A stretch of DNA of 47,939 bases from a virus. Below, piece after piece: positions 5,851 to 47,607 of this stretch. Made by a program: the position numbers and the translations under genes. The stretch is from positions 7,924 to 55,862 of the IMG/VR virus record IMGVR_UViG_3300030108_003593. One strand, given 5' to 3'. Below the pieces are notes generated by a model. That model searched no databases, was not told the DNA's origin, and worked only from the letters and a program-made list of their open reading frames with translations. The number at the start of each line of letters is the position of its first letter. Positions within the stretch are counted from its first letter, which is position 1.

Positions 5851-8583
5851 TTATGCAATTCTCGTTATAATACCATTAGATATTGTCATAGTTTTTGTTG
5901 TCCTACTATCTTGTAAAAATCTTTGACTTGTATTCAAACTACCACTACCAGCTGGGCCTTGAGGTCCTGGAGGTCCTGCGGGACCTTGAGGGCCTGGAGG
6001 TCCTTGTACTGAGACTCCACTTGTTCCACTCGAACCACTTGCACCAGTTGGTCCTTGTGCTCCTCTATCACCTGGTGCTCCTCTATCACCTTGAGGTCCT
6101 GGAGGGCCTTGTACTGAGACTCCACTTGTTCCACTCGAACCACTTGCACCAGTTGCACCTTGTCCACCTTGTGCACCTTGAGGTCCTGGAGGTCCTGGAG
6201 GTCCTTGAGGTCCTGTACCACCATCTCTACCACTTGTTCCACTCGAACCACTTGCACCAGTTGGTCCTTGTGGGCCTGGAGGTCCTGCAGGTCCTTGTGG
6301 GCCTGTTCCACCTGGAGGGCCTTGTACCGAAACTCCACTCGTTCCACTACTTCCACTTGCACCTTGTGGTCCTGGAGGTCCTTGAGGGCCTGGAGGGCCT
6401 TGTACGGAAACTCCACTTGTTCCACTCGAACCACTTGCACCTGGAGGTCCTGGAGGGCCTTGTACCGAGACTCCACTCGTACCACTTGAACCACTATTAC
6501 CATCTCTACCATCAGTACCGTTTCTACCATCAGTACCACTTGTACCACTTGTACCACTACTTCCACTCGTTCCACTACTTCCATTTGCACCTGGAGGTCC
6601 TTGTGGGCCTGCTACACCTTGTGCACCTTGAGGGCCTTGAGCTCCTTGAGGTCCTGTAATACTTCTTCCACTTGTTCCACTTGAACCATCAGCTCCTCTA
6701 CCACCTTGTGGGCCTTGTGGGCCTGGAGGACCTTGTACCGAAACTCCACTTGTTCCACTACTTCCACTTGTCCCACTTGTTCCACTCGTACCACTTGAAC
6801 CACTTGGGCCTTGTGCACCTGTTCCACCTTGAAGTCCTTGAGCTCCTCTATCACCTTGTGAGCCTTGTGGTCCTGTTCTTCCACTTGTACCACTTGAACC
6901 ACTTGAACCACTCGTACCACTTGTACCCGAAGTCCCACTCGTACCACTTGTACCACTTGAACCACTTGGGCCTTGTCCACCTTGTGCACCTTGAGGGCCT
7001 TGAGGACCTGTAGCTCCTCTATCACCTTGTCTACCATCAACACCACTTGTTCCTGAAGAACCACTTGAACCACTTGTGCCACTTGTTCCACTCGAACCAC
7101 TCGTACCACTTGTACCTGAAGTTCCACTTGTACCACTTGAACCACTTGGGCCTTGTGCACCTGTACCACCTTGTGGACCTTGAAGTCCTGTAGCTCCTCT
7201 ATCACCTTGAGGTCCAGTTCGTCCACTTGTTCCACTACTTCCACTTGAACCACTTGTACCACTTGTACCTGAAGTTCCACTTGTTCCACTCGAACCATTA
7301 ACACCAGCAGCACCTTGAGGTCCTTGGTCACCTTGAAGTCCTTGAGGGCCTTGTGGTCCTGGTGGTCCTGTACCACCATCTCTACCACTCGTACCACTAC
7401 TTCCACTTACTCCACTCGTACCACTCGAACCACTTGTTCCACTTGAGCCAGATGTTCCACTTGTACCTGAACTTCCACTTACCCCACTTGTACCACTTGA
7501 GCCAGATGTTCCACTTGTGCCTGAAGTTCCACTTGTTCCACTCGAACCACTATCACCTTTATCACCAGTTCTTGCGAATGTAACTATAACAAACTCACCA
7601 TTACTAAATGGTGAACTATCAGAATTAGCAACTACTCCACCATCAACTGTAAAGTAACCACTCTCTTCGGAAATACGAGTAATTGTCATCAAAATAAATT
7701 GTGATGAATCTGTAAGATTTGAAATTCTAAAATGTCCTTTTATGGTTGATGTAGAGTCATCTATTGTTCTTAGATATGTTTGTATGTCTTCTGAATTACT
7801 ATCCGCATCATCGATAATCATACGAGTTGCAGAACTTTGTGTAGAATTATTTAGTCTTATTATACCAGAACCAGGATCACTTGTAGTTGTAGAAGTACTA
7901 AATCTATATCTAAATGTTGCTCCACCAAAGTTACCATCTTGTCCACTTGTACCAGATGTTCCACTTGTACCACTTGTTCCACTACTACCACTTGTACCAC
8001 TTGTACCGCTTGACCCACTTACTCCACTCGTACCACTTGAACCACTATTACCACTCGTACCACTCGAACCACTCGTTCCACTTGTTCCACTACTTCCACT
8101 TGTACCACTTGAACCAGGATTTCCACCTCTACCATCTTGTCCACTTGTACCACTTGTGCCACTCGAACCACTCGTTCCACTTGTTCCACTACTTCCACTT
8201 GTTCCGCTTGAACCAGATGTTCCACTCGTACCACTCGTACCAGATGTCCCACTTGTTCCACTCGTACCACTTGAAAAATTTGTACCTTGTACATATGTGT
8301 CTATTGCATCTAAATCTTGTTGCATCTCATCAATCAGAAATGCTATAGGACCTACGAAATCTGAAAAACCATCATCTTCCAACCAACGACCTTTTGCAAC
8401 AGATTCGGATGCAGCATTATGTACACTTTCGGTAACATAAAAGGCCAAATCTGTTTGGTCATAAGTTACACCTTTATCGGAAGCTACATCACCTCGACTT
8501 CTCGCAGAAGATATCTTCGTTTTTTGATCAGAAGTTTCTGCTAATTTGAATATCCGTTTTCGTGCTTTTCTTGTTATTGCCAT
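5851..8583 (-). CDS. Collagen-like fibre protein (910 aa)
   Basis: Start [19 protein letters not shown] with a basic N-terminal head of about 100 residues. Next comes a Gly-X-Y tract of the GTS/GSS type (8275-7935) and a globular module of about 125 residues (7932-7552). Then follows a long mixed Gly-X-Y region (about 530 residues) alternating GTSGSS blocks with Pro-rich collagen blocks such as [10 protein letters not shown]. The C-terminus is short ([13 protein letters not shown]...NGIITRIA). Gly at every third residue implies a trimeric triple-helical stalk; phage proteins of this kind are fibres or surface decorations. The N-terminus probably anchors it to the virion. It is the smallest and most Pro-rich of three tandem fibre genes. 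Whether it is a tail fibre, neck whisker or head decoration cannot be told from sequence. Confidence 0.85.
7552..7932 (-). repeat. Fibre module copy 1 ([13 protein letters not shown] domain)
   Basis: Globular domain of about 125 residues running from NFGGATF to FARTGDKGD, flanked on both sides by Gly-X-Y tracts. Signature segments are [19 protein letters not shown] and GYFTVDGG. Three more copies occur in the two larger fibre genes. The last Gly-Asp-Lys-Gly-Asp runs directly into collagen phase. Confidence 0.9.
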
Positions 8584-29536: not shown

Positions 29537-30067
29537 CTACTTATTATTTTTCTGTGTAATCAATTTTGAGAACTTTACTTTCTGTTCTTTTACTTTTGAA
29601 TTTGTGTCCTCACCAATTGTATAATAACGACCTAAAATGTGTCCCATATCTTCATACAAAACAGCCATTCTTTCTTGTAGGTCTTGTGCCTCAGTAGCAA
29701 TCTTTCCAAAGTTACCACCAAGTTTTTTCAATTCTTTCATATTACGAGAAACGGTTACTTTATCAAACCATCCATCTAACTCATTTACTGCATGTCTTGA
29801 AGCAGTTTCACAAACCCAGCCTAAATGGGATGCAAGTTCTTTCAAGGATGTCTTTCTATAAAGTTCTTCACCGATATTATTGAAATTGTTTACGGATTCC
29901 ATAAATTTCTTTTCATCGATAGGTTCTTCTTTTTCTTCGTCTTCAACCTCAACGATGGGTTTATCTTTCATATTTGTCTTGAAAGTTTGTCCAACTCCAA
30001 GTGCAGGTGTTGATACTATCCCACCAGCGATAAAGTGTTCTTCTAATAAATCTTTTAATTTAGGCAT
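29537..30067 (-). CDS. Putative internal head protein with capsid-targeting-like leader (176 aa)
   Basis: Start MPKLKDLLEEHF, CGGAG before the ATG. The leader has the x-K-L-K-x-L-L-x-E pattern with E10 in the place where T4 internal proteins are cleaved, as in two neighbouring proteins. Then a Gly/Val-rich stretch (IAGGIVSTPALGVG), a short acidic region (VEVEDEEKEEPIDEKK) and a helical domain from about residue 55 (SLKELASHLGWVCETASRHAVNELDGWFDK...). No enzyme motif is seen. It could be a packaged internal protein or a core component; the latter is possible as it is next to the scaffold. A promoter motif lies 20 bases upstream. Confidence 0.6.
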   Translation of the reverse strand: MPKLKDLLEEHFIAGGIVSTPALGVGQTFKTNMKDKPIVEVEDEEKEEPIDEKKFMESVNNFNNIGEELYRKTSLKELASHLGWVCETASRHAVNELDGWFDKVTVSRNMKELKKLGGNFGKIATEAQDLQERMAVLYEDMGHILGRYYTIGEDTNSKVKEQKVKFSKLITQKNNK

Positions 30068-30098: not shown

Positions 30099-30988
30099 TA
30101 CTTTTTAGTTTTTTTACCAAGTAATTGTGACATCACACTTTTGTAAGTAGATTCTTTTAGTTTCTTATGTACATACAATTTATCTACATCGTGCATCACA
30201 CTCTTTCCACCCTTTTGAAATTGTCTATATCCACTTGAACTACCAGCTTTTTTCGATCCTGGTTCGGGTGTTGCAGGTATTCCACCACTCACACTTCCCT
30301 CAGGTGGTGTGGTTGGTTTTTTCAAAACATCTGCAGTGTGTACCATATCGTGTGTTTCTAAAGGAATAGTGTACTCTGGATTCTTACCAAAAGCTCTTCT
30401 TCCATAAATTCTTTGTTTAGGTGACAATGGTGGTGTATCATCCCTCAACTCGTGTGGGTCTATCACTACCATTTTCTTTTTATTCTCAGGATTCATTTTA
30501 GATTGTGTTATGGTCTTTCTTCCACCATCTCCACCATAGACCACATCAGCCTTTGGTACATCTATTTGAACCATACCTCGTGGCATCCCACCAGGTCCTA
30601 CAATTCTTTCCTCACCATACTTTGTAAAAATACCATCAGGCCAAGCATCACCTGTGTTCAATCCATATCCTGTTGTTGTTCCTGAGTACTCATTTATAAG
30701 TTTTGCTAACCCATCAACTCCATATTCTTCTAATAATATTCTCAAATCTTCTTTTGATATTGATTCCATTGGTGTAAATTTTCTTTTCAAATATGATAAG
30801 AAATACTTTTTTGCCTTATCATCACTACTATGTCTACCCAACTCTATCTCATATCTTGCTTTACTTTTTGCTATAACAACCCCAAAATAATCATTTTTAG
30901 GTTTATCTTTTTTATACACCCAAGCTTTTCTAACAGGTCTAAAATCTACATCACCAACAAATTCAGCATCTAAATATTGTTTACTCAT
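30098..30988 (-). CDS. Unknown phage protein (296 aa), probable virion component
   Basis: Start MSKQYLDAEFVGDVDFRPVR, coupled to the upstream gene by TAATG. I do not recognise a family. The first 110 residues are a mixed, basic fold (RKAWVYKKDKPKNDYFGVVIAKSKARYEIEL). The middle is Gly/Pro-rich (GTTTGYGLNTGDAWPDGIF, GGMPRGMVQIDVP). The part after about residue 215 is Pro/Gly/Ser-rich linker (PEGSVSGGIPATPEPGSKK) and ends in a basic helix. Low-complexity linkers with basic ends are common in virion proteins. The gene lies in the head-maturation cluster between two leader-bearing proteins, so a head or core role is likely but unproven. Confidence 0.55.
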   Translation of the reverse strand: MSKQYLDAEFVGDVDFRPVRKAWVYKKDKPKNDYFGVVIAKSKARYEIELGRHSSDDKAKKYFLSYLKRKFTPMESISKEDLRILLEEYGVDGLAKLINEYSGTTTGYGLNTGDAWPDGIFTKYGEERIVGPGGMPRGMVQIDVPKADVVYGGDGGRKTITQSKMNPENKKKMVVIDPHELRDDTPPLSPKQRIYGRRAFGKNPEYTIPLETHDMVHTADVLKKPTTPPEGSVSGGIPATPEPGSKKAGSSSGYRQFQKGGKSVMHDVDKLYVHKKLKESTYKSVMSQLLGKKTKK

Positions 30989-31500
30989 TATAACCTCGAT
31001 TTCAAACTTACATATGTTCCAGCCATTGATGGTGTAAAATATAATGCATATGTATTACCACCCTTGTGTAGTGTAAAATGAGTTTTTACAGAAGTCTTTT
31101 TCAATTTATATCCACCCATCTTTTTTACATCTTTCAAAAAGTCTTTGAGTGTATATAATGCATATTCTTCATTACCTGGTACTACATCACTTCCTACTTG
31201 TATGGAAGATTCTATAGTCTTAATTTTTTCAAATTTTATTGGTTTATCAAATCCTGCAGGTTCAGATACTTGATATCTCGATTCTTTTTTATCTATTCTT
31301 GAAGTTCCTGCCTTTATACCTTGACCTTGACCACCTGCCCACCAAGAATTTTTTGGGTGTCTACCTTGTTCTAAAGATACTTTCTTGAATACTTTTTCAA
31401 AATCTTTTATTGCACCTTTTGACGCACCATCTTTAGAATCTGTTGCATAATTCTGATAAGATATTGGGCCTTCAGATAATAATGTTTTTAGTTTTATCAT
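30988..31500 (-). CDS. Putative internal head protein with capsid-targeting-like leader (170 aa)
   Basis: I chose the ATG at 31498-31500 (MIKLKTLLSEGP). The longer frame would begin at a TTG inside the preceding gene. L8-S9-E10 is a gp21-type cleavage pattern at the same residue as in T4 internal proteins. The mature part has SYQNYATDSKDGASKGAIKDFEKVFKK, a Gly-rich loop (WWAGGQGQGIKAGTSR) and a beta-rich C-terminus (YKLKKTSVKTHFTLHKGGNTYALYFTP). No known catalytic motif. The first 15 bases are identical to those of the next upstream gene, and the two genes lie in tandem. Probably packaged into the head; the activity is unknown. Confidence 0.6.
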   Translation of the reverse strand: MIKLKTLLSEGPISYQNYATDSKDGASKGAIKDFEKVFKKVSLEQGRHPKNSWWAGGQGQGIKAGTSRIDKKESRYQVSEPAGFDKPIKFEKIKTIESSIQVGSDVVPGNEEYALYTLKDFLKDVKKMGGYKLKKTSVKTHFTLHKGGNTYALYFTPSMAGTYVSLKSRL

Positions 31501-31805: not shown

Positions 31806-33374
31806 TTACCTATATCTATACAACCAACCACCGTGGACATCATACTTCTTCCAAGTGTCTGATTTGAATATGTTTCCTCGTACACCTTTAGCGGGTGCTC
31901 TAAAACTTGCAGGTTTGTAAATATCACCTGTTGCTCTATCTACAAAAAATGAAACTGCACCAGCTCTCTTGTTTCTGACATTTACAATCTTATCAAATTT
32001 TATACCAGGTCTCAATAAATCTGGATACTCCCATGCACCCATATCATATAATTTAGGTAATTCAGTTTTATAGTAGTTTTCGGCTTTCTTTTGCATATAC
32101 TTCAACATTTTCTTCATAGCCGCATCATATCCCTTTGGTGTTGGAGCGGGTCCTCTACCAAAAGATTCTTCGTAATATTTTTGGTCTAAATCTGTTTTCT
32201 TGAAACTTTTTAGATTCTTTATCACCTTTAGAATTTGACCATATTTTCCTACTATGAATTGGTCTGAAGATACACCTAAGTCAATCATACCTTTAGGATT
32301 TACATAAAATGGTAATACATCAGTTCCGTTAGCAGATTTTACAGTATAGAATCCACCCCAAATCTGACTTTGGATAAATGATTTCTTCATAGGTTGATAT
32401 TTTACAACTTTGATTCCTGAAAGTTTTAGTGCCTTATCAATGAATCCTTTTATGTGTTCATCCTTTACCTCAACTCCATCAATTTTGTTTTCAATTATTT
32501 CATTTTTTTTCTTATACAAATACTGAAATACATTTGCCCAACCTGGTAATCCATCAAATTTATAAAATGTTTTTGAACCAAAGGTATCTGAATCTACCTT
32601 TTCTGGTCTACCACCAAGTTTATCTTCATTCTTACCTTTCCAATCTAACCACTTGACATAGGCCTTCATCAAGTTACCTTTCAAATATGGTTTCATAGAT
32701 GGTTCAACTTTTTTATATTTCTTTAGAAATGCCTCAACTCTTTTGGGTTGTACATCATATACCAAGAAATCTCTTTCGGTAAGTAAATGTTCTTTCATTG
32801 ATAATCTAACTCCCTCATTCTTTTTATATTGAGGGTCAATTTTTTTCATCTTGATTAGAATATCACGAACTCTTTCTCTATCTAAACTATCACCAGTAAA
32901 GGTGTCAGCGGAATACTTTTTAAGATATACCGATAGTGCAACATTTATATCATTTACTTTGAGAGGTCTTCCCCTTTTATCAGGATATATACCTTTTTGA
33001 CCATAAAAGTCTTGCATATATCGGTAAAACGATTGTAAATTTTCTTTTATTTTTTCTTTAGATTCTTTGATAGGTTCGTAGTGTTCTTCTACTCTATTTG
33101 CTAAATTATCTTTATTCTTTTTTAGAGCATCACCAGGTTCCCATTTCCATTTTTTCTTCTTTTGCATACTTCCAAGAAACTGAGAATCACCTCTACCAAG
33201 ATTCAAGTATACTTCTACATACCCTATATCTCCACCAACTCTGTTTTTCTTTGAGACATATTTTGTTATTTTAGGTATTACAACTTTTAGTTTAGTTCCA
33301 TTCATAGGAATAGGAAATGGTCTTCTTCCTCTTGTACTAATATCTTTGTATATATCTACCTCAAAATTAGCCAT
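31806..33374 (-). CDS. Mosaic virion protein of unknown function (522 aa)
   Basis: Start MANFEVDIYKDISTRGRRPF, TAATG overlap with the protease gene. Lys/Tyr-rich. It has a basic N-terminal beta part and a helical region with NLQSFYRYMQDFYGQKGIYPDKRGRP. An internal MKEHLLTERDFLVYD looks like a buried leader-type segment with L-T-E. The C-terminal 60 residues (SFFVDRATGDIYKPASFRAPAKGVRGNIF...GGWLYRYR) are a short module that I recognise from many marine phage virion proteins, usually worded FVDKxTGDxYKPASWKAPAKG. Its role is unknown. Position right after the protease suggests a head or packaged protein. Confidence 0.6.
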   Translation of the reverse strand: MANFEVDIYKDISTRGRRPFPIPMNGTKLKVVIPKITKYVSKKNRVGGDIGYVEVYLNLGRGDSQFLGSMQKKKKWKWEPGDALKKNKDNLANRVEEHYEPIKESKEKIKENLQSFYRYMQDFYGQKGIYPDKRGRPLKVNDINVALSVYLKKYSADTFTGDSLDRERVRDILIKMKKIDPQYKKNEGVRLSMKEHLLTERDFLVYDVQPKRVEAFLKKYKKVEPSMKPYLKGNLMKAYVKWLDWKGKNEDKLGGRPEKVDSDTFGSKTFYKFDGLPGWANVFQYLYKKKNEIIENKIDGVEVKDEHIKGFIDKALKLSGIKVVKYQPMKKSFIQSQIWGGFYTVKSANGTDVLPFYVNPKGMIDLGVSSDQFIVGKYGQILKVIKNLKSFKKTDLDQKYYEESFGRGPAPTPKGYDAAMKKMLKYMQKKAENYYKTELPKLYDMGAWEYPDLLRPGIKFDKIVNVRNKRAGAVSFFVDRATGDIYKPASFRAPAKGVRGNIFKSDTWKKYDVHGGWLYRYR

Positions 33375-33988
33375 TATTTTCCTCCGATAATGTCTCTCAA
33401 TGTATACTCTACTTTACACCATTTATCACAAGACTCACCAAGTTGTCTTCTTGACTTATCGATTGACTCATTTACAGGATGTAAAAATGCACCTTGAGTA
33501 GATGGATTAGATACGAAGTCAAAAGCAATTAGTTCAAAATCATCCCCAACTTTATTTGCCTCAGTACCTTCAAATTTTATTGTCTCTACCGAACCAAGTC
33601 CACGAGAACTAATTCCCAACTTGATACCAGCCTTGAATAACTCTTTTAGAATATTACCACTTGGTGTTGTCAAAACTTCTACCGTACCAACTAAATCATC
33701 TCCGTCCCACTTCATACCAGTAACATTATGTGAAACATTTTGTAAATTAACCACAGAGGAATCGGGATGGTCTAATTCACCTAACGCTCTTTTTTCTTTT
33801 ATAAATGTATCCGAATATTTTTTGGCCTCTCTCATCAATATGTCTTTTGGATAGACACGACCATTTTGGTTTTTGGAGTCTGCTCTTTGTAAGACACCAG
33901 TAACGGTAAAGGGTTTATTGTCGTGAACACCCTCCGATATTGTTTTGGCCTCAAATGGCCTGTATTCTAATAATAAATTTTTACTCAT
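33374..33988 (-). CDS. gp21: Prohead maturation protease (T4 gp21 homologue)
   Basis: 204 residues (T4 gp21 is 212), start MSKNLLLEYRPFEAKTISEG, AGAGGA before the ATG. This is a herpesvirus-assemblin-fold serine protease (peptidase family U9/S77 type). Seen here: the NGRVYPKDILMREA entry strand, catalytic His74 in GELDHPDS, catalytic Ser at S127/S128 in GIKLGISSRGLGSV, and Asp157 in LIAFDFVSNPST. It cleaves scaffold, capsid and internal proteins after (L/I)-x-Glu. Matching sites are visible in this window in gp22, gp23 and the leader-bearing small proteins. A promoter motif lies 36 bases upstream in the end of the previous gene. Confidence 0.95.
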   Translation of the reverse strand: MSKNLLLEYRPFEAKTISEGVHDNKPFTVTGVLQRADSKNQNGRVYPKDILMREAKKYSDTFIKEKRALGELDHPDSSVVNLQNVSHNVTGMKWDGDDLVGTVEVLTTPSGNILKELFKAGIKLGISSRGLGSVETIKFEGTEANKVGDDFELIAFDFVSNPSTQGAFLHPVNESIDKSRRQLGESCDKWCKVEYTLRDIIGGK

Positions 33989-40446: not shown

Positions 40447-43400
40447 TTAAAAGTACATTAGTCCCGTAATCTGATTGATTGGGGCAAATGCACCTGTTAG
40501 TTTGTATGTATTTCCGTTATATTTAAAAACAAGTCCCTCTGTTGGAACTACTGCACCCAAACCACCAATGGCATTTAGTTTCTCCATTTGTGCTTTTAGT
40601 GTATTTAATTTCTTTAGGTCTCCACCTTTTTTCACTACATTGATTGCCTTTTCAACTTGTTTCTTGACATTCTGTACTGAAGCTTTAGGGTTTACTGCCA
40701 AGAATCCACTCAAGTTCTTTAGTATTTCTGCACCAACTTCAAACAATAAAGTTTCAAATGGTTTCATATTTTGTTTTACCATTTTTGAGTGGTCTTGTTT
40801 GTCGGTACTCAACACCCAATCTAAAAATTTAGGATGTTCTTTTAGGTCTCTTTTTATCATCGGTATTGTGTAACTCTTATCAAAAAATGCCCATCTCTTC
40901 ATTAGTGCATATACAACATTATCAGGTGGATTTGGATAATCAGTTTGGTTTGCACCATTGAGTATCCACTCTAACCAATAGTGTTGATGATAAACTGACA
41001 ATTTATCACTATCAGATAGTTTATATTGATTTCTCAATCTGTCTAATTTAGCAAAAAAGTAAGCTCTTTGTTTTGAGTAATCTTGTGATTTAGTCATCTT
41101 CAATACATTTGGTCCTCTAATACTAAACTTCTTACCGATATTAGCACCAATTTGTTTTATCATTCCTGCCAATATTCTACCACTACCTGGTACTTCACCA
41201 ATTGCCTCTCCACCTTTGTACTTTAGTGCTCCGTGAAAGACAATTATTGGTGCATCATAATTTATCACATTAGCTGATGCTGGATACATAACTTCTAAAT
41301 TCATATAATTGTTACCATCATCAAATATCTTTTTCTTTTGTGCATCAGTTAATTTACCGATGGACTTACTCAAGTCATCAAGTGCATATGAGAAAGCTTT
41401 TTCAATATTACCTCTACCTTTAAATTTTGCTTTTATAGAACCAACTGATGCACCACCTCGTTTTATATCTCCTTTATTTCTAGCAACTACGAGATTCTTA
41501 CCTTTCCAACTTATCATTAGATTTTGACCATCTAATTTTTCTTGTACTCCAGATTCAGCATCAAGTTTACCTTGTAACCCTAAATCAATAATATTTTTTA
41601 TATCCCCAAATGTCAAATTTTTATCATCAAAGGGATGTGCCATATGTCCGTATGCACCACCCATAAGTAATAACTCTTTTCCTTTATAATCTTCGTTAGA
41701 TAATACTTCAACTATCTCCTTAGTATAAATATCAAGTTGTTCATCCAAACCCAAATAAAAATCAATCTCAGATTCTATCACACCATCTACTTTTTGACCA
41801 CCAACACCTTTGTTTTCAGTTCCAATAAATTTTAGAATTTTCATTCCCATAGTATTTGCTAATTCTTTCATATATGAAATGTGTTTTGGAAATGGATTAT
41901 CAGAACTTGCATAGTTCTTAGTATTTTGATTTACAGTTCTTCCAAATGTTACCGTTGGTGTTCTTTCATATTCATATGTAAAGTCGTTTTCCATAACATC
42001 TTTTTTATCAATCAAATGTCCAATTACCTCAAATCCTGCCAATATATTGGCGTGTTTTGGTGAAACTCTTTCGTAATCATCATATGATTTGAAAAAGTCA
42101 TATAGTCCCTCATCTGATAAATTTGGAACACTTACAGAACCTTCTTTCATCAAAAATTCTTTTATTTTTTTATCTGGTATTATATGGTCTACAAGTCCTT
42201 TGAACTTATTAGTTAGCATCTTATAAATACCCTCATCATAATATCCAAATAATTTTTTGAAAACTTTTGGTCTTTCCGAATCTTTTATCTTAGAAGAACC
42301 CAATACTTTTCTCATTGTAGTACCTGATATTTCCATACCAGCAATTTTCATACTAACATGCGGTGCAGTCAAGAAATATCCGTGTTCTTCAAATCCCTTT
42401 AGATTACCCCTATGTTTTTTATAATCTTGAAAATATCCCAATGAACCATCTTTCTTTCGACCACCTGCTAATCTACCTGCATCTTTTTCACCAAATATAT
42501 AAACTACTGCAGTTGTTTTTGGGTCAAATTTAGATAAAAGATTATTTGCAACTAATGGTGATTTTTCTTTTATGACTTTATTGGGTGATATTCCCATTTT
42601 AGCCATATGTCTAATTTTTTCTTTGTAATTCAATGGATGTCTTGGTGGTTTCTTGATATCACTTGTAGTTATATATGCATCATCTGTTTTTGATTGTAAC
42701 CACTCAAATGTTTTTTTATGATGTGGGCCAAATGGTTGAAACCTACCACCATACACACCAATTACTTTTTTTATTTTATTTTCATTTAAGGCGTTTTTCT
42801 CATTTTCCATACCTAAATATACATCATTTTCACTATATAAGTCAAGCTTTTTTTCATTCATTTTTTTGTAACCACTACCATATGGAACAGAAGTATGTCC
42901 TTTCTTTTTCATCTTCTTTACCATCTTACGACTTGGTGATGGTATTCCAATTTCGTTTTTCTTTTTAGTCTTCTCTTTCATCTGATTGATGTATTTTCTA
43001 TAAACTCCTGCAGCACTTTTCTTTCCCATCTCCTTTGCTCTTTGTTCCATAGCAACTGCTGCTTGTATTTTATGAGCGTGAGATTTACCACTACTCTTTA
43101 TTTTATTTACAGATTTTTCTGCGTCCTTTACGGTTGCAAATTTCAATCCGTGTATTGTACCTTTTGGATTCTCGTCTGTATATAAATCTGAATGATTTGG
43201 TGAGTTTCTATGTTGTCCTTTCTTACGAGGTTTTCTATCTGCCTCATTCTTTATACAATTAGGATATCTCTTACCAAACAATATTTTTGTCTTACGAGTA
43301 GGATGTATTTTATATCCTTTCCAACATTTTTCACATAGACATTCCCCACAATATGATTCACCTATAACATCATATCCTATGAGTGCCATTGCCAAATCTC

Positions 43401-43749
43401 TATCTGAATCTCCTCTGAACTTTTGTGCAACCTTTTTATAATTTTTCTTTATCATTTTTGAAGCTGCATTTTTAGATTGTCCATACATCTGTAGAAGTCT
43501 AAGTATGTTACCAATTTGTTCTTTACTTTCCTTTACGGATTTTACCATTCTAAATTTTAATGCAGGTCTCCCATTGATTAGTAAGTCTCCTTTTTCATTA
43601 TAATCAATGGATTTTACTATAACTTTTTTATTCTTGAAACGACCCATCATTACCGTATCACCAACATTGATAGGTAACTTTACATCCTCGGTAATCTCAG
43701 ATGATTGTCCGAGAAGTAAATTATTGGCCAACCATTCTCCTAATTTCAT
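40447..43749 (-). CDS. Multidomain protein: nucleotidylyltransferase fused to ATP-grasping ligase-like domain, with virion modules
   Basis: 1100 residues, ATGA overlap with the upstream gene. Parts in order: residues 80-127, helical module (LLQMYGQSKNAASKMIKKNYKK); 134-165, Cys-rich segment CGECLCEKCWKGYKIHPTRKTK ending YPNC; 205-256, module DAEKSVNKIK...HKIQAAVAMEQRAKE; about 328-510, HxGH-type nucleotidylyltransferase with GVYGGRFQPFGPHHKKT and ISGTTMR (474-480); about 730-1100, covalent nucleotidyltransferase/ligase signature. In the last, motif I is K738-L-D-G, followed by ARNKG; motif III-like is MNLEVMYP; motif IV is E1071-GLVFKY and motif V is YKLTG. The first enzyme resembles NMN or related adenylyltransferases; the second RNA/DNA ligases. 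Substrates are unknown. The N-terminal modules recur in marine phage virion proteins, so the protein may be packaged or bound to the virion. Confidence 0.7.
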   Translation of the reverse strand: MKLGEWLANNLLLGQSSEITEDVKLPINVGDTVMMGRFKNKKVIVKSIDYNEKGDLLINGRPALKFRMVKSVKESKEQIGNILRLLQMYGQSKNAASKMIKKNYKKVAQKFRGDSDRDLAMALIGYDVIGESYCGECLCEKCWKGYKIHPTRKTKILFGKRYPNCIKNEADRKPRKKGQHRNSPNHSDLYTDENPKGTIHGLKFATVKDAEKSVNKIKSSGKSHAHKIQAAVAMEQRAKEMGKKSAAGVYRKYINQMKEKTKKKNEIGIPSPSRKMVKKMKKKGHTSVPYGSGYKKMNEKKLDLYSENDVYLGMENEKNALNENKIKKVIGVYGGRFQPFGPHHKKTFEWLQSKTDDAYITTSDIKKPPRHPLNYKEKIRHMAKMGISPNKVIKEKSPLVANNLLSKFDPKTTAVVYIFGEKDAGRLAGGRKKDGSLGYFQDYKKHRGNLKGFEEHGYFLTAPHVSMKIAGMEISGTTMRKVLGSSKIKDSERPKVFKKLFGYYDEGIYKMLTNKFKGLVDHIIPDKKIKEFLMKEGSVSVPNLSDEGLYDFFKSYDDYERVSPKHANILAGFEVIGHLIDKKDVMENDFTYEYERTPTVTFGRTVNQNTKNYASSDNPFPKHISYMKELANTMGMKILKFIGTENKGVGGQKVDGVIESEIDFYLGLDEQLDIYTKEIVEVLSNEDYKGKELLLMGGAYGHMAHPFDDKNLTFGDIKNIIDLGLQGKLDAESGVQEKLDGQNLMISWKGKNLVVARNKGDIKRGGASVGSIKAKFKGRGNIEKAFSYALDDLSKSIGKLTDAQKKKIFDDGNNYMNLEVMYPASANVINYDAPIIVFHGALKYKGGEAIGEVPGSGRILAGMIKQIGANIGKKFSIRGPNVLKMTKSQDYSKQRAYFFAKLDRLRNQYKLSDSDKLSVYHQHYWLEWILNGANQTDYPNPPDNVVYALMKRWAFFDKSYTIPMIKRDLKEHPKFLDWVLSTDKQDHSKMVKQNMKPFETLLFEVGAEILKNLSGFLAVNPKASVQNVKKQVEKAINVVKKGGDLKKLNTLKAQMEKLNAIGGLGAVVPTEGLVFKYNGNTYKLTGAFAPINQITGLMYF

Positions 43750-47596: not shown

Positions 47597-47607
47597 TTAT
47601 AAATATC
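47597..47607 (-). promoter_or_regulatory. Putative late promoter motif (GATATTTATAA)
   Basis: Perfect copy of the recurrent motif, 26 bases upstream of the 161-aa gene and just after the endolysin stop. The plus strand holds TATAAATA. Confidence 0.5.

Follow-up and report, generated by a model that had tools for sequence, protein, structure and literature searches.

In phage T4, residues 4 and 7 of the capsid-targeting sequence (CTS) direct packaging into the head and residues 8 and 10 direct processing (PMC9026906), and injected multidomain proteins, termed polyvalent, are an established concept (PMC9503650). Within the part of the polyvalent-protein literature considered here, no pair or fusion of a NadM-type enzyme with a ligase is described. 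Here we report a gene of this kind in a viral sequence of 47,939 nucleotides (IMG/VR record IMGVR_UViG_3300030108_003593, positions 7,924 to 55,862), referred to below as the window, in which an open reading frame (ORF) of 1100 amino acids (aa) on the minus strand (43749-40447) combines an HxGH nucleotidyltransferase domain with a ligase-like domain inside the late gene cluster. We read its product as a head-packaged, injected two-enzyme protein of the RNA-repair type, and give this reading a probability of roughly 45%. The parts of the gene, in window coordinates, are as follows; sampled loci are numbered with an L.

40447..43749, minus strand: whole gene, a modular HxGH nucleotidyltransferase plus ligase-like protein of 1100 aa
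43687..43749, minus strand: residues 1-21, candidate capsid-targeting leader MKLGEWLANNLLLGQSSEITE followed by D (compare hydrophobic-x-E endings and STITE before A in T4 IPI)
43540..43686, minus strand: residues 22-70, KOW/SH3-like module (weak KOW match), found as standalone ORFs in L064-L067
43354..43542, minus strand: residues 70-132, small helical module that recurs elsewhere in L050, L053 and L054
42940..43254, minus strand: residues 166-270, mobile module RKPRKKGQHR..., with standalone counterparts in cyanophages
42196..42780, minus strand: residues 324-518, HxGH nucleotidyltransferase domain, NadM-type by PDB profile, AlphaFold2 (AF2) model and Foldseek
42718..42750, minus strand: residues 334-344, GGRFQPFGPHH, by motif reading
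42310..42330, minus strand: residues 474-480, ISGTTMR, by motif reading
41680..42162, minus strand: residues 530-690, LigX, an optional module missing or moved in some relatives
41503..41679, minus strand: residues 691-749, GGAYGHMAHPFDD...EKLDGQNLMISW, holding K738, the lysine of motif I, and encoded separately in the split lineage
40450..41502, minus strand: residues 750-1100, remaining ligase-like domain with R757/ARNKG, motif III E819, motif IIIa VFH, the helical insertion and motifs IV and V
40600..41106, minus strand: residues 882-1050, helical insertion separating motif IIIa from motif IV, from AF2 secondary structure
40495..40539, minus strand: residues 1071-1085, motif IV EGLVF and motif V YKLT, with K1083 invariant and T1085 in place of the second lysine

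A preliminary description of this locus had noticed GGRFQPFGPHH and ISGTTMR, and had remarked that the HxGH motif is altered; both motifs are present, at residues 334 and 474, and a glycine does stand in place of the first histidine. R336, H344, S475-G476-T477 and R480 are invariant in 41 non-redundant homologs. A 51-member HxGH profile matched archaeal nicotinamide mononucleotide (NMN) adenylyltransferases in the PDB (1f9a, E 7.2e-7; 4yp5, E 1.4e-6) in an alignment that takes in the GRFQPF and SGTxxR regions alike, and the AF2 model (pLDDT 88.5) has the expected alpha/beta nucleotidyltransferase fold, with Foldseek returning NadM, NadD and PPAT structures (2qjo, E 4.4e-6). R336, H344, R370 and R480, all invariant or nearly so, align with the ATP-site residues R11, H19, R47 and R136 of MTH150. 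The (H/T)xGH signature behind GRFQPF is absent from the window protein, which reads GPHH; the second signature, ISxTxxR, is present along with the MTH150-equivalent residues. GPHH is confined to one clade, the sister clade carrying HSGH or HPGH and LR756508 carrying HRGH, and one sister-clade member (L072) exceeds the PF01467 and TIGR00125 cut-offs. Among known enzymes, the archaeal NMN adenylyltransferases of the NadM type are its closest counterparts, and its site, changed at one position with the MTH150-equivalent ATP-site residues kept, does not appear obviously dead.

The covalent nucleotidyltransferase motifs claimed for the downstream part are likewise all in place, with EKLDG at 737 (K738), EGLVFKY at 1071 and YKLTG at 1082, and to these can be added a motif III, NLEVMYP, at 817 (E819). 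The protein thus has the motif I nucleophile in KxDG, the motif III glutamate and the EGxV of motif IV, the V being T in one clade and the motif IV lysine being variable. K738, D740, G741, R757, N758, E819, E1071, G1072, K1083 and T1085 are invariant in the 41 homologs, and most of the invariant residues of both domains are kept in relatives at 31-38% identity. The unusually long spacing reported between motifs I and IV was borne out (333 residues, against 128 in T4 Rnl1 and 169 in T4 Rnl2), and a helical insertion of about 170 residues lies between motifs IIIa and IV. A fortuitous set of motifs in an unrelated protein would agree with the weak sequence-only matches that the window protein gave in the PDB and Pfam, but strict conservation across distant homologs, together with the structure and profile matches, already contradicts this explanation, which is scarcely credible.

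The AF2 model of the ligase-like part is good from about residue 705 to 1100. The structural comparison proposed for residues 640-1100 came out in favour of a ligase by rank, the first eleven PDB matches from Foldseek all being ligases (Aquifex ligase, T4 Rnl1, archaeal Rnl and T4 Rnl2), but not by score, as these matches were weak (E 0.016 or worse, with low TM-scores). In BFVD, Foldseek ranked family-like proteins first and uncharacterised proteins of phages second (among them one of 389 aa from Ackermannviridae), ahead of RNA ligases from many viruses, headed by that of RM378 (E 1.5e-3). The Pfam family with the largest number of matching members was PF09414 (RNA_ligase), matched by 26 of 74 with a best E of 0.0079, the window protein itself being outside the reported matches. 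With hhalign, the T4 Rnl2 profile gave E 0.0018, above 60 of 60 column shuffles and with motif I in register; the Rnl1 profile scored lower, with motifs I and III aligned and one of 60 shuffles scoring higher; and against single T4 proteins Rnl2 came first of 59, barely. A PDB search with the ligase profile returned ribosomal S6 alone, judged to be chance. Taken together, these several weak tests make a ligase-type adenylation domain likely, and residues ~690-1100 are likely to form a divergent ligase-type covalent nucleotidyltransferase whose modelled fold is most like that of RNA ligases, although the domain cannot be counted among either the Rnl1 or the Rnl2 enzymes.

The same evidence bears on a rather unlikely alternative, in which both domains are active and the second transfers AMP or GMP to a protein, a small molecule or an RNA 5' end (AMPylation, capping) with no polynucleotide ligation, reactions of which covalent nucleotidyltransferases are capable. 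The K-x-T of motif V is unlike ligases and capping enzymes alike, capping enzymes occur among the weak structural matches, and the chain ends about 15 residues past motif V, where a C-terminal OB domain is not recognisable. The best-scoring named matches are RNA ligases, however, not capping enzymes, and the PF09414 result also argues for ligation.

The 1100-aa fusion is real, but it is not the oddity of a single genome that it could have seemed, as it belongs to a large, modular and conserved family. A first IMG/VR scan gave 72 relatives and a profile scan at least 569 confirmed ones, while the ligase part is encoded in only 3 of 50,697 phage records (one of them Mel-JY01, the others two jumbo phages, both uncultured) and on five contigs in bacterial or archaeal metagenome-assembled genome bins, which we read as viral contigs. 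The family is abundant and unannotated in many uncultured marine T4-like viruses, and the present analysis names a probable function class for it. Almost all relatives have the two domains in a single ORF: HxGH and complete ligase lie within one plus-strand ORF at 163 of the 208 family loci, and the ligase-only cases first examined start at a contig edge. The exception is LR756500, whose ligase is encoded on its own (421 aa), the very next gene having an HxGH domain (GRFQPFTLGH ... ISASVVR). This fusion and adjacency suggest that the two activities work together. Relatives also carry kinase, HD, C45 hydrolase and retropepsin-like modules in varying order, so that several shuffled enzymatic domains stand in one late protein, as in polyvalent proteins. 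In the RKPRKKGQHR module, residues 172-266 (42952-43236) share 72-76% identity with hypothetical proteins that stand alone in Synechococcus and Prochlorococcus phages, a closeness that the remainder of the gene does not approach, and we therefore regard the module as mobile.

The genes and modules that accompany the family point toward RNA. An AAA_33 kinase occurs in 24 of 31 records (13 of these have it within very long, family-size ORFs), a CCA-adding enzyme is encoded directly upstream in two of the split loci described below (L065, L066), and a CCA-type HD domain is fused in L053; because of these partners, RNA repair after injection is the preferred reading. A Nudix protein with a leader is encoded beside the ligase in L211, and it is among the points that agree with an improbable, NAD-centred alternative, in which the HxGH domain makes NAD+ from NMN, the ligase takes its adenylate from NAD+, the released NMN is recycled and the kinases supply NMN. 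The NadM-type profile match and the presence of kinase genes in most records also suit it, and NadM and NadR serve phages as a means against NAD+ depletion (PMC9503650). Against it, the Ia domain of NAD+-dependent ligases was not recognised upstream of motif I, a conserved GHxxHPF block lies only about 36 residues ahead of K738, and the substrate assignment of the HxGH domain is putative.

The position of the gene, together with its N terminus, suggests packaging. As the preliminary description had it, the gene stands in a late cluster: PHROGs annotation placed endolysin-like, late and holin-sized genes upstream and terminase, portal, prohead protease and major capsid genes downstream, so that the claimed terminase neighbour is confirmed and the claimed holin is holin-sized only, PHROGs having given it no such identity. 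A hydrophobic-x-E leader ending was found in 47 of 53 distinct family N-termini, against 30% at internal methionines, and leaders of type MNKLTEWLTKPFLEE stand ahead of P-loop kinase, KOW-like, RKPRKKGQHR or HxGH modules. For comparison, T4 ipIII starts MKTYQEFIAE, Alt starts MELITELFDE and the IPI leader ends STITE before A. The T4 leader spacing was also present in 50 of 1213 non-family genes, against 4.2 expected and at most 11 in 200 shuffles, the leader-bearing proteins being partly related and their counts not independent. The typical non-family form, MIKLKDLLxE, heads unrelated late proteins that include kinases and one Nudix protein; this form and its longer versions constitute a sequence tag that may list the proteins these uncultured viruses inject. 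The window gene has the (L/I/F)-x-E leader, and the genome encodes a prohead protease; the following features are relevant.

33374..33988, minus strand: prohead (head maturation) protease, presumed leader cleaver (phrog_207, E 1.1e-52)
30988..31500, minus strand: unrelated late protein starting MIKLKTLLSE before G, a leader match
29537..30067, minus strand: unrelated late protein starting MPKLKDLLEE before H, a leader match

On the proposed search of virion proteomes from related phages there is evidence by analogy: HxGH relatives have been detected by mass spectrometry in virions of the cyanophages S-SZBM1, S-CREM2, S-CBWM1 and S-SCSM1 (PMC9146016, PMC10665884, PMC9602691), the S-SZBM1 protein starting with a CTS-like MRFRQFIIE before A. 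Leader and analogy together suggest that the window protein is probably carried in the virion and injected.

In the preferred reading, then, a modular, polyvalent late protein would probably be directed into the prohead by its N-terminal leader, cut there by the prohead protease, and then packaged along with the DNA and injected. The NadM-like HxGH domain would use ATP and a mononucleotide to build a dinucleotide, for example NAD+, and the divergent RNA-ligase-type domain would self-adenylylate on K738 and either join the ends of nucleic acids or adenylylate them. Relatives carry modules of the kinase, CCA/poly(A)-polymerase, HD and Pol-beta types, fused or nearby, and in view of these its most likely job would be to repair RNA (tRNA) that host defences cleave early in infection. 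Several observations weigh against injected RNA repair. The CCA enzyme was found in 3 of 31 records only, in one of them far from the ligase; no tRNA genes were found in the window or the sampled loci; and a kinase next to an NMN adenylyltransferase also fits NAD salvage. In the window protein the first His of HxGH is Gly, motif V reads K1083-x-T1085 in place of KxK, and the ligase homology is weak in each single test (Foldseek, Pfam, and hhalign near noise). The authors of the cyanophage work warn of possible co-purification of abundant proteins with virions (among PMC9146016, PMC10665884 and PMC9602691), and the proteomes cover cyanophage HxGH relatives, none of them from the window lineage.

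One lineage of the family divides the ligase naturally. In seven contigs (L053, L054, L064-L067 and L151) a separate downstream gene ends ...EKLDGQNLMISW plus one to three residues, and the remainder (K-L-x-AARNKG...) stays fused to the HxGH domain, in L151 as a truncated upstream ORF; the catalytic motif I lysine is thus on a separate protein. The break falls within the hairpin turn after motif I, between the AF2-predicted strands 742-749 and 752-756, and the KOW/SH3-like module is also a separate gene, of about 100 aa, in L064-L067. The six split members that could be placed form one clade (support 0.985), L151 being too fragmentary for placement, and dN/dS of the motif I fragment is mostly 0.02-0.08, indicating strong constraint. 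An assembly error was rejected given the seven contigs, the single clade and the low dN/dS; an intein, an intron and trans-splicing were rejected as the seven split loci showed no intein-like residues and no Rfam match, and each ORF has its own start and stop. A two-chain enzyme is the simplest reading of the split lineage, and it would be a rare nucleotidyltransferase with its nucleophile on another polypeptide. A fuller proposal, which we hold to be improbable, is an injected RNA-repair machine whose ligase is fed NAD+ by the fused NMN adenylyltransferase, with NMN recycled, and in which, in this one lineage, the two chains meet with the catalytic lysine in trans completing the motif I beta-hairpin. 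The constraint on the separated fragment and the invariance of the catalytic residues over many relatives argue against a further reading, in which the protein is a factor in the assembly or structure of the virion and its enzyme folds are residual, much as T4 Rnl1 has a second role in attaching tail fibres; the late head and lysis cluster, the short mobile modules and the variable architecture would suit such a factor, but we consider it quite unlikely.

As to the source virus, its terminase is closest, among isolates, to the terminases encoded by Microcystis phage Mel-JY01 (55%) and by Flavobacterium phage immuto (54%), which makes it a T4-like myovirus of an unusual branch. A candidate late-promoter element in this genome, proposed from sequence, is TATTTATA, which occurs in the coding orientation on the minus strand at window positions 47605, 39547, 30096, 29311, 21739, 5822 and 1201; seven of its 15 minus-strand copies are intergenic, where intergenic DNA makes up ~3.5% of the window, and the pooled loci hold 257 intergenic copies against 62 for the reverse orientation.

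Further observations concern the build of individual relatives. In L062, L063 and L068, extra domains of ~340-375 aa lie between ligase residues ~646 and 693, just ahead of the GHxxHPF block, and this junction thus seems to accept modules. In L102 (3127-3819) a possible Pol-beta nucleotidyltransferase, TGSISNYNWSKFSDVDLHL, with weak NTP_transf_2 and MTPAP matches, is inserted beside the ligase, behind a PF05618 protease-like module; PDB sequence searches with ART-like, Pol-beta and kinase modules gave no usable match. On contig IMGVR_UViG_3300022821_000315 (L100/L193), in-frame TGA stands at invariant Trp at three sites of a terminase-like gene (12 of 12 relatives at each) and at one further site in the next, portal-like gene, and TGA is also found at the Tyr/Trp of ligase motif III. 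This virus seems to read TGA as Trp and the window virus to use it as a stop; gene decay was rejected, the in-frame stops being mostly TGA at Trp sites.

Unfused HxGH and ligase-like gene pairs occur in other T4-like phages. The HxGH gene adjoins DUF6267 (PF19782) in 77 of 80 cyanophage-type loci, a common but unexplained pair of DUF6267 and 'cytidyltransferase' genes (phrog_455, phrog_395), and phrog_455 matches both parts. DUF6267 as a proven ligase homolog was rejected (hhalign E 0.1, wrong register), leaving a motif reading. Stenotrophomonas phage Moby has a possible row of Pol-beta, ligase-like and HxGH genes, identified by eye except for HxGH. In phage immuto (L282, 8222-11855), gp088, annotated as NadR, apparently combines a Pol-beta-type, an HxGH and a metallopeptidase-like region, and gp089 resembles another Pol-beta nucleotidyltransferase, the immuto Pol-beta calls being mostly by eye.

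Compared with known systems, the family resembles the head-packaged T4 effectors Alt and IPI-III in being encoded by late genes with a CTS-like leader, but this leader is extended to about 15-21 residues, and it resembles the phage polyvalent proteins of Iyer and Aravind in its multiple, shuffled enzymatic modules. With NadM and the archaeal NMN adenylyltransferases (MTH150, MJ0541) it shares GRFQPF, [IVS]SGTxxR, the equivalents of R11, H19, R47 and R136 and the predicted fold; the window clade differs by Gly for the first His, and use of NMN is putative. It also differs from the NadM-Nudix and NadR proteins of phages, as the partner here is a ligase-like domain and not a Nudix domain or nicotinamide riboside kinase. 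Its EKxDG.N motif I recalls EKIHGTN of T4 Rnl2 and its RNKG block KSKG of T4 Rnl1, and with Rnl1, Rnl2 (PF09414) and the RM378 ligase it shares the N-L/F-E of motif III and EGxV followed by a hairpin to the motif V lysine, whereas the K-x-T, the ~170-residue helical insertion, the weak scores, the HxGH fusion and the one split lineage set it apart. DUF6267, read by eye, shows KWDG ... IVFH ... PEGFVAI ... KLV in ligase order, again with a motif V that lacks the second Lys; DUF6267 and 'cytidyltransferase' are separate genes, unlike the fusion in the window, but the pair may represent a two-enzyme system of the same sort.

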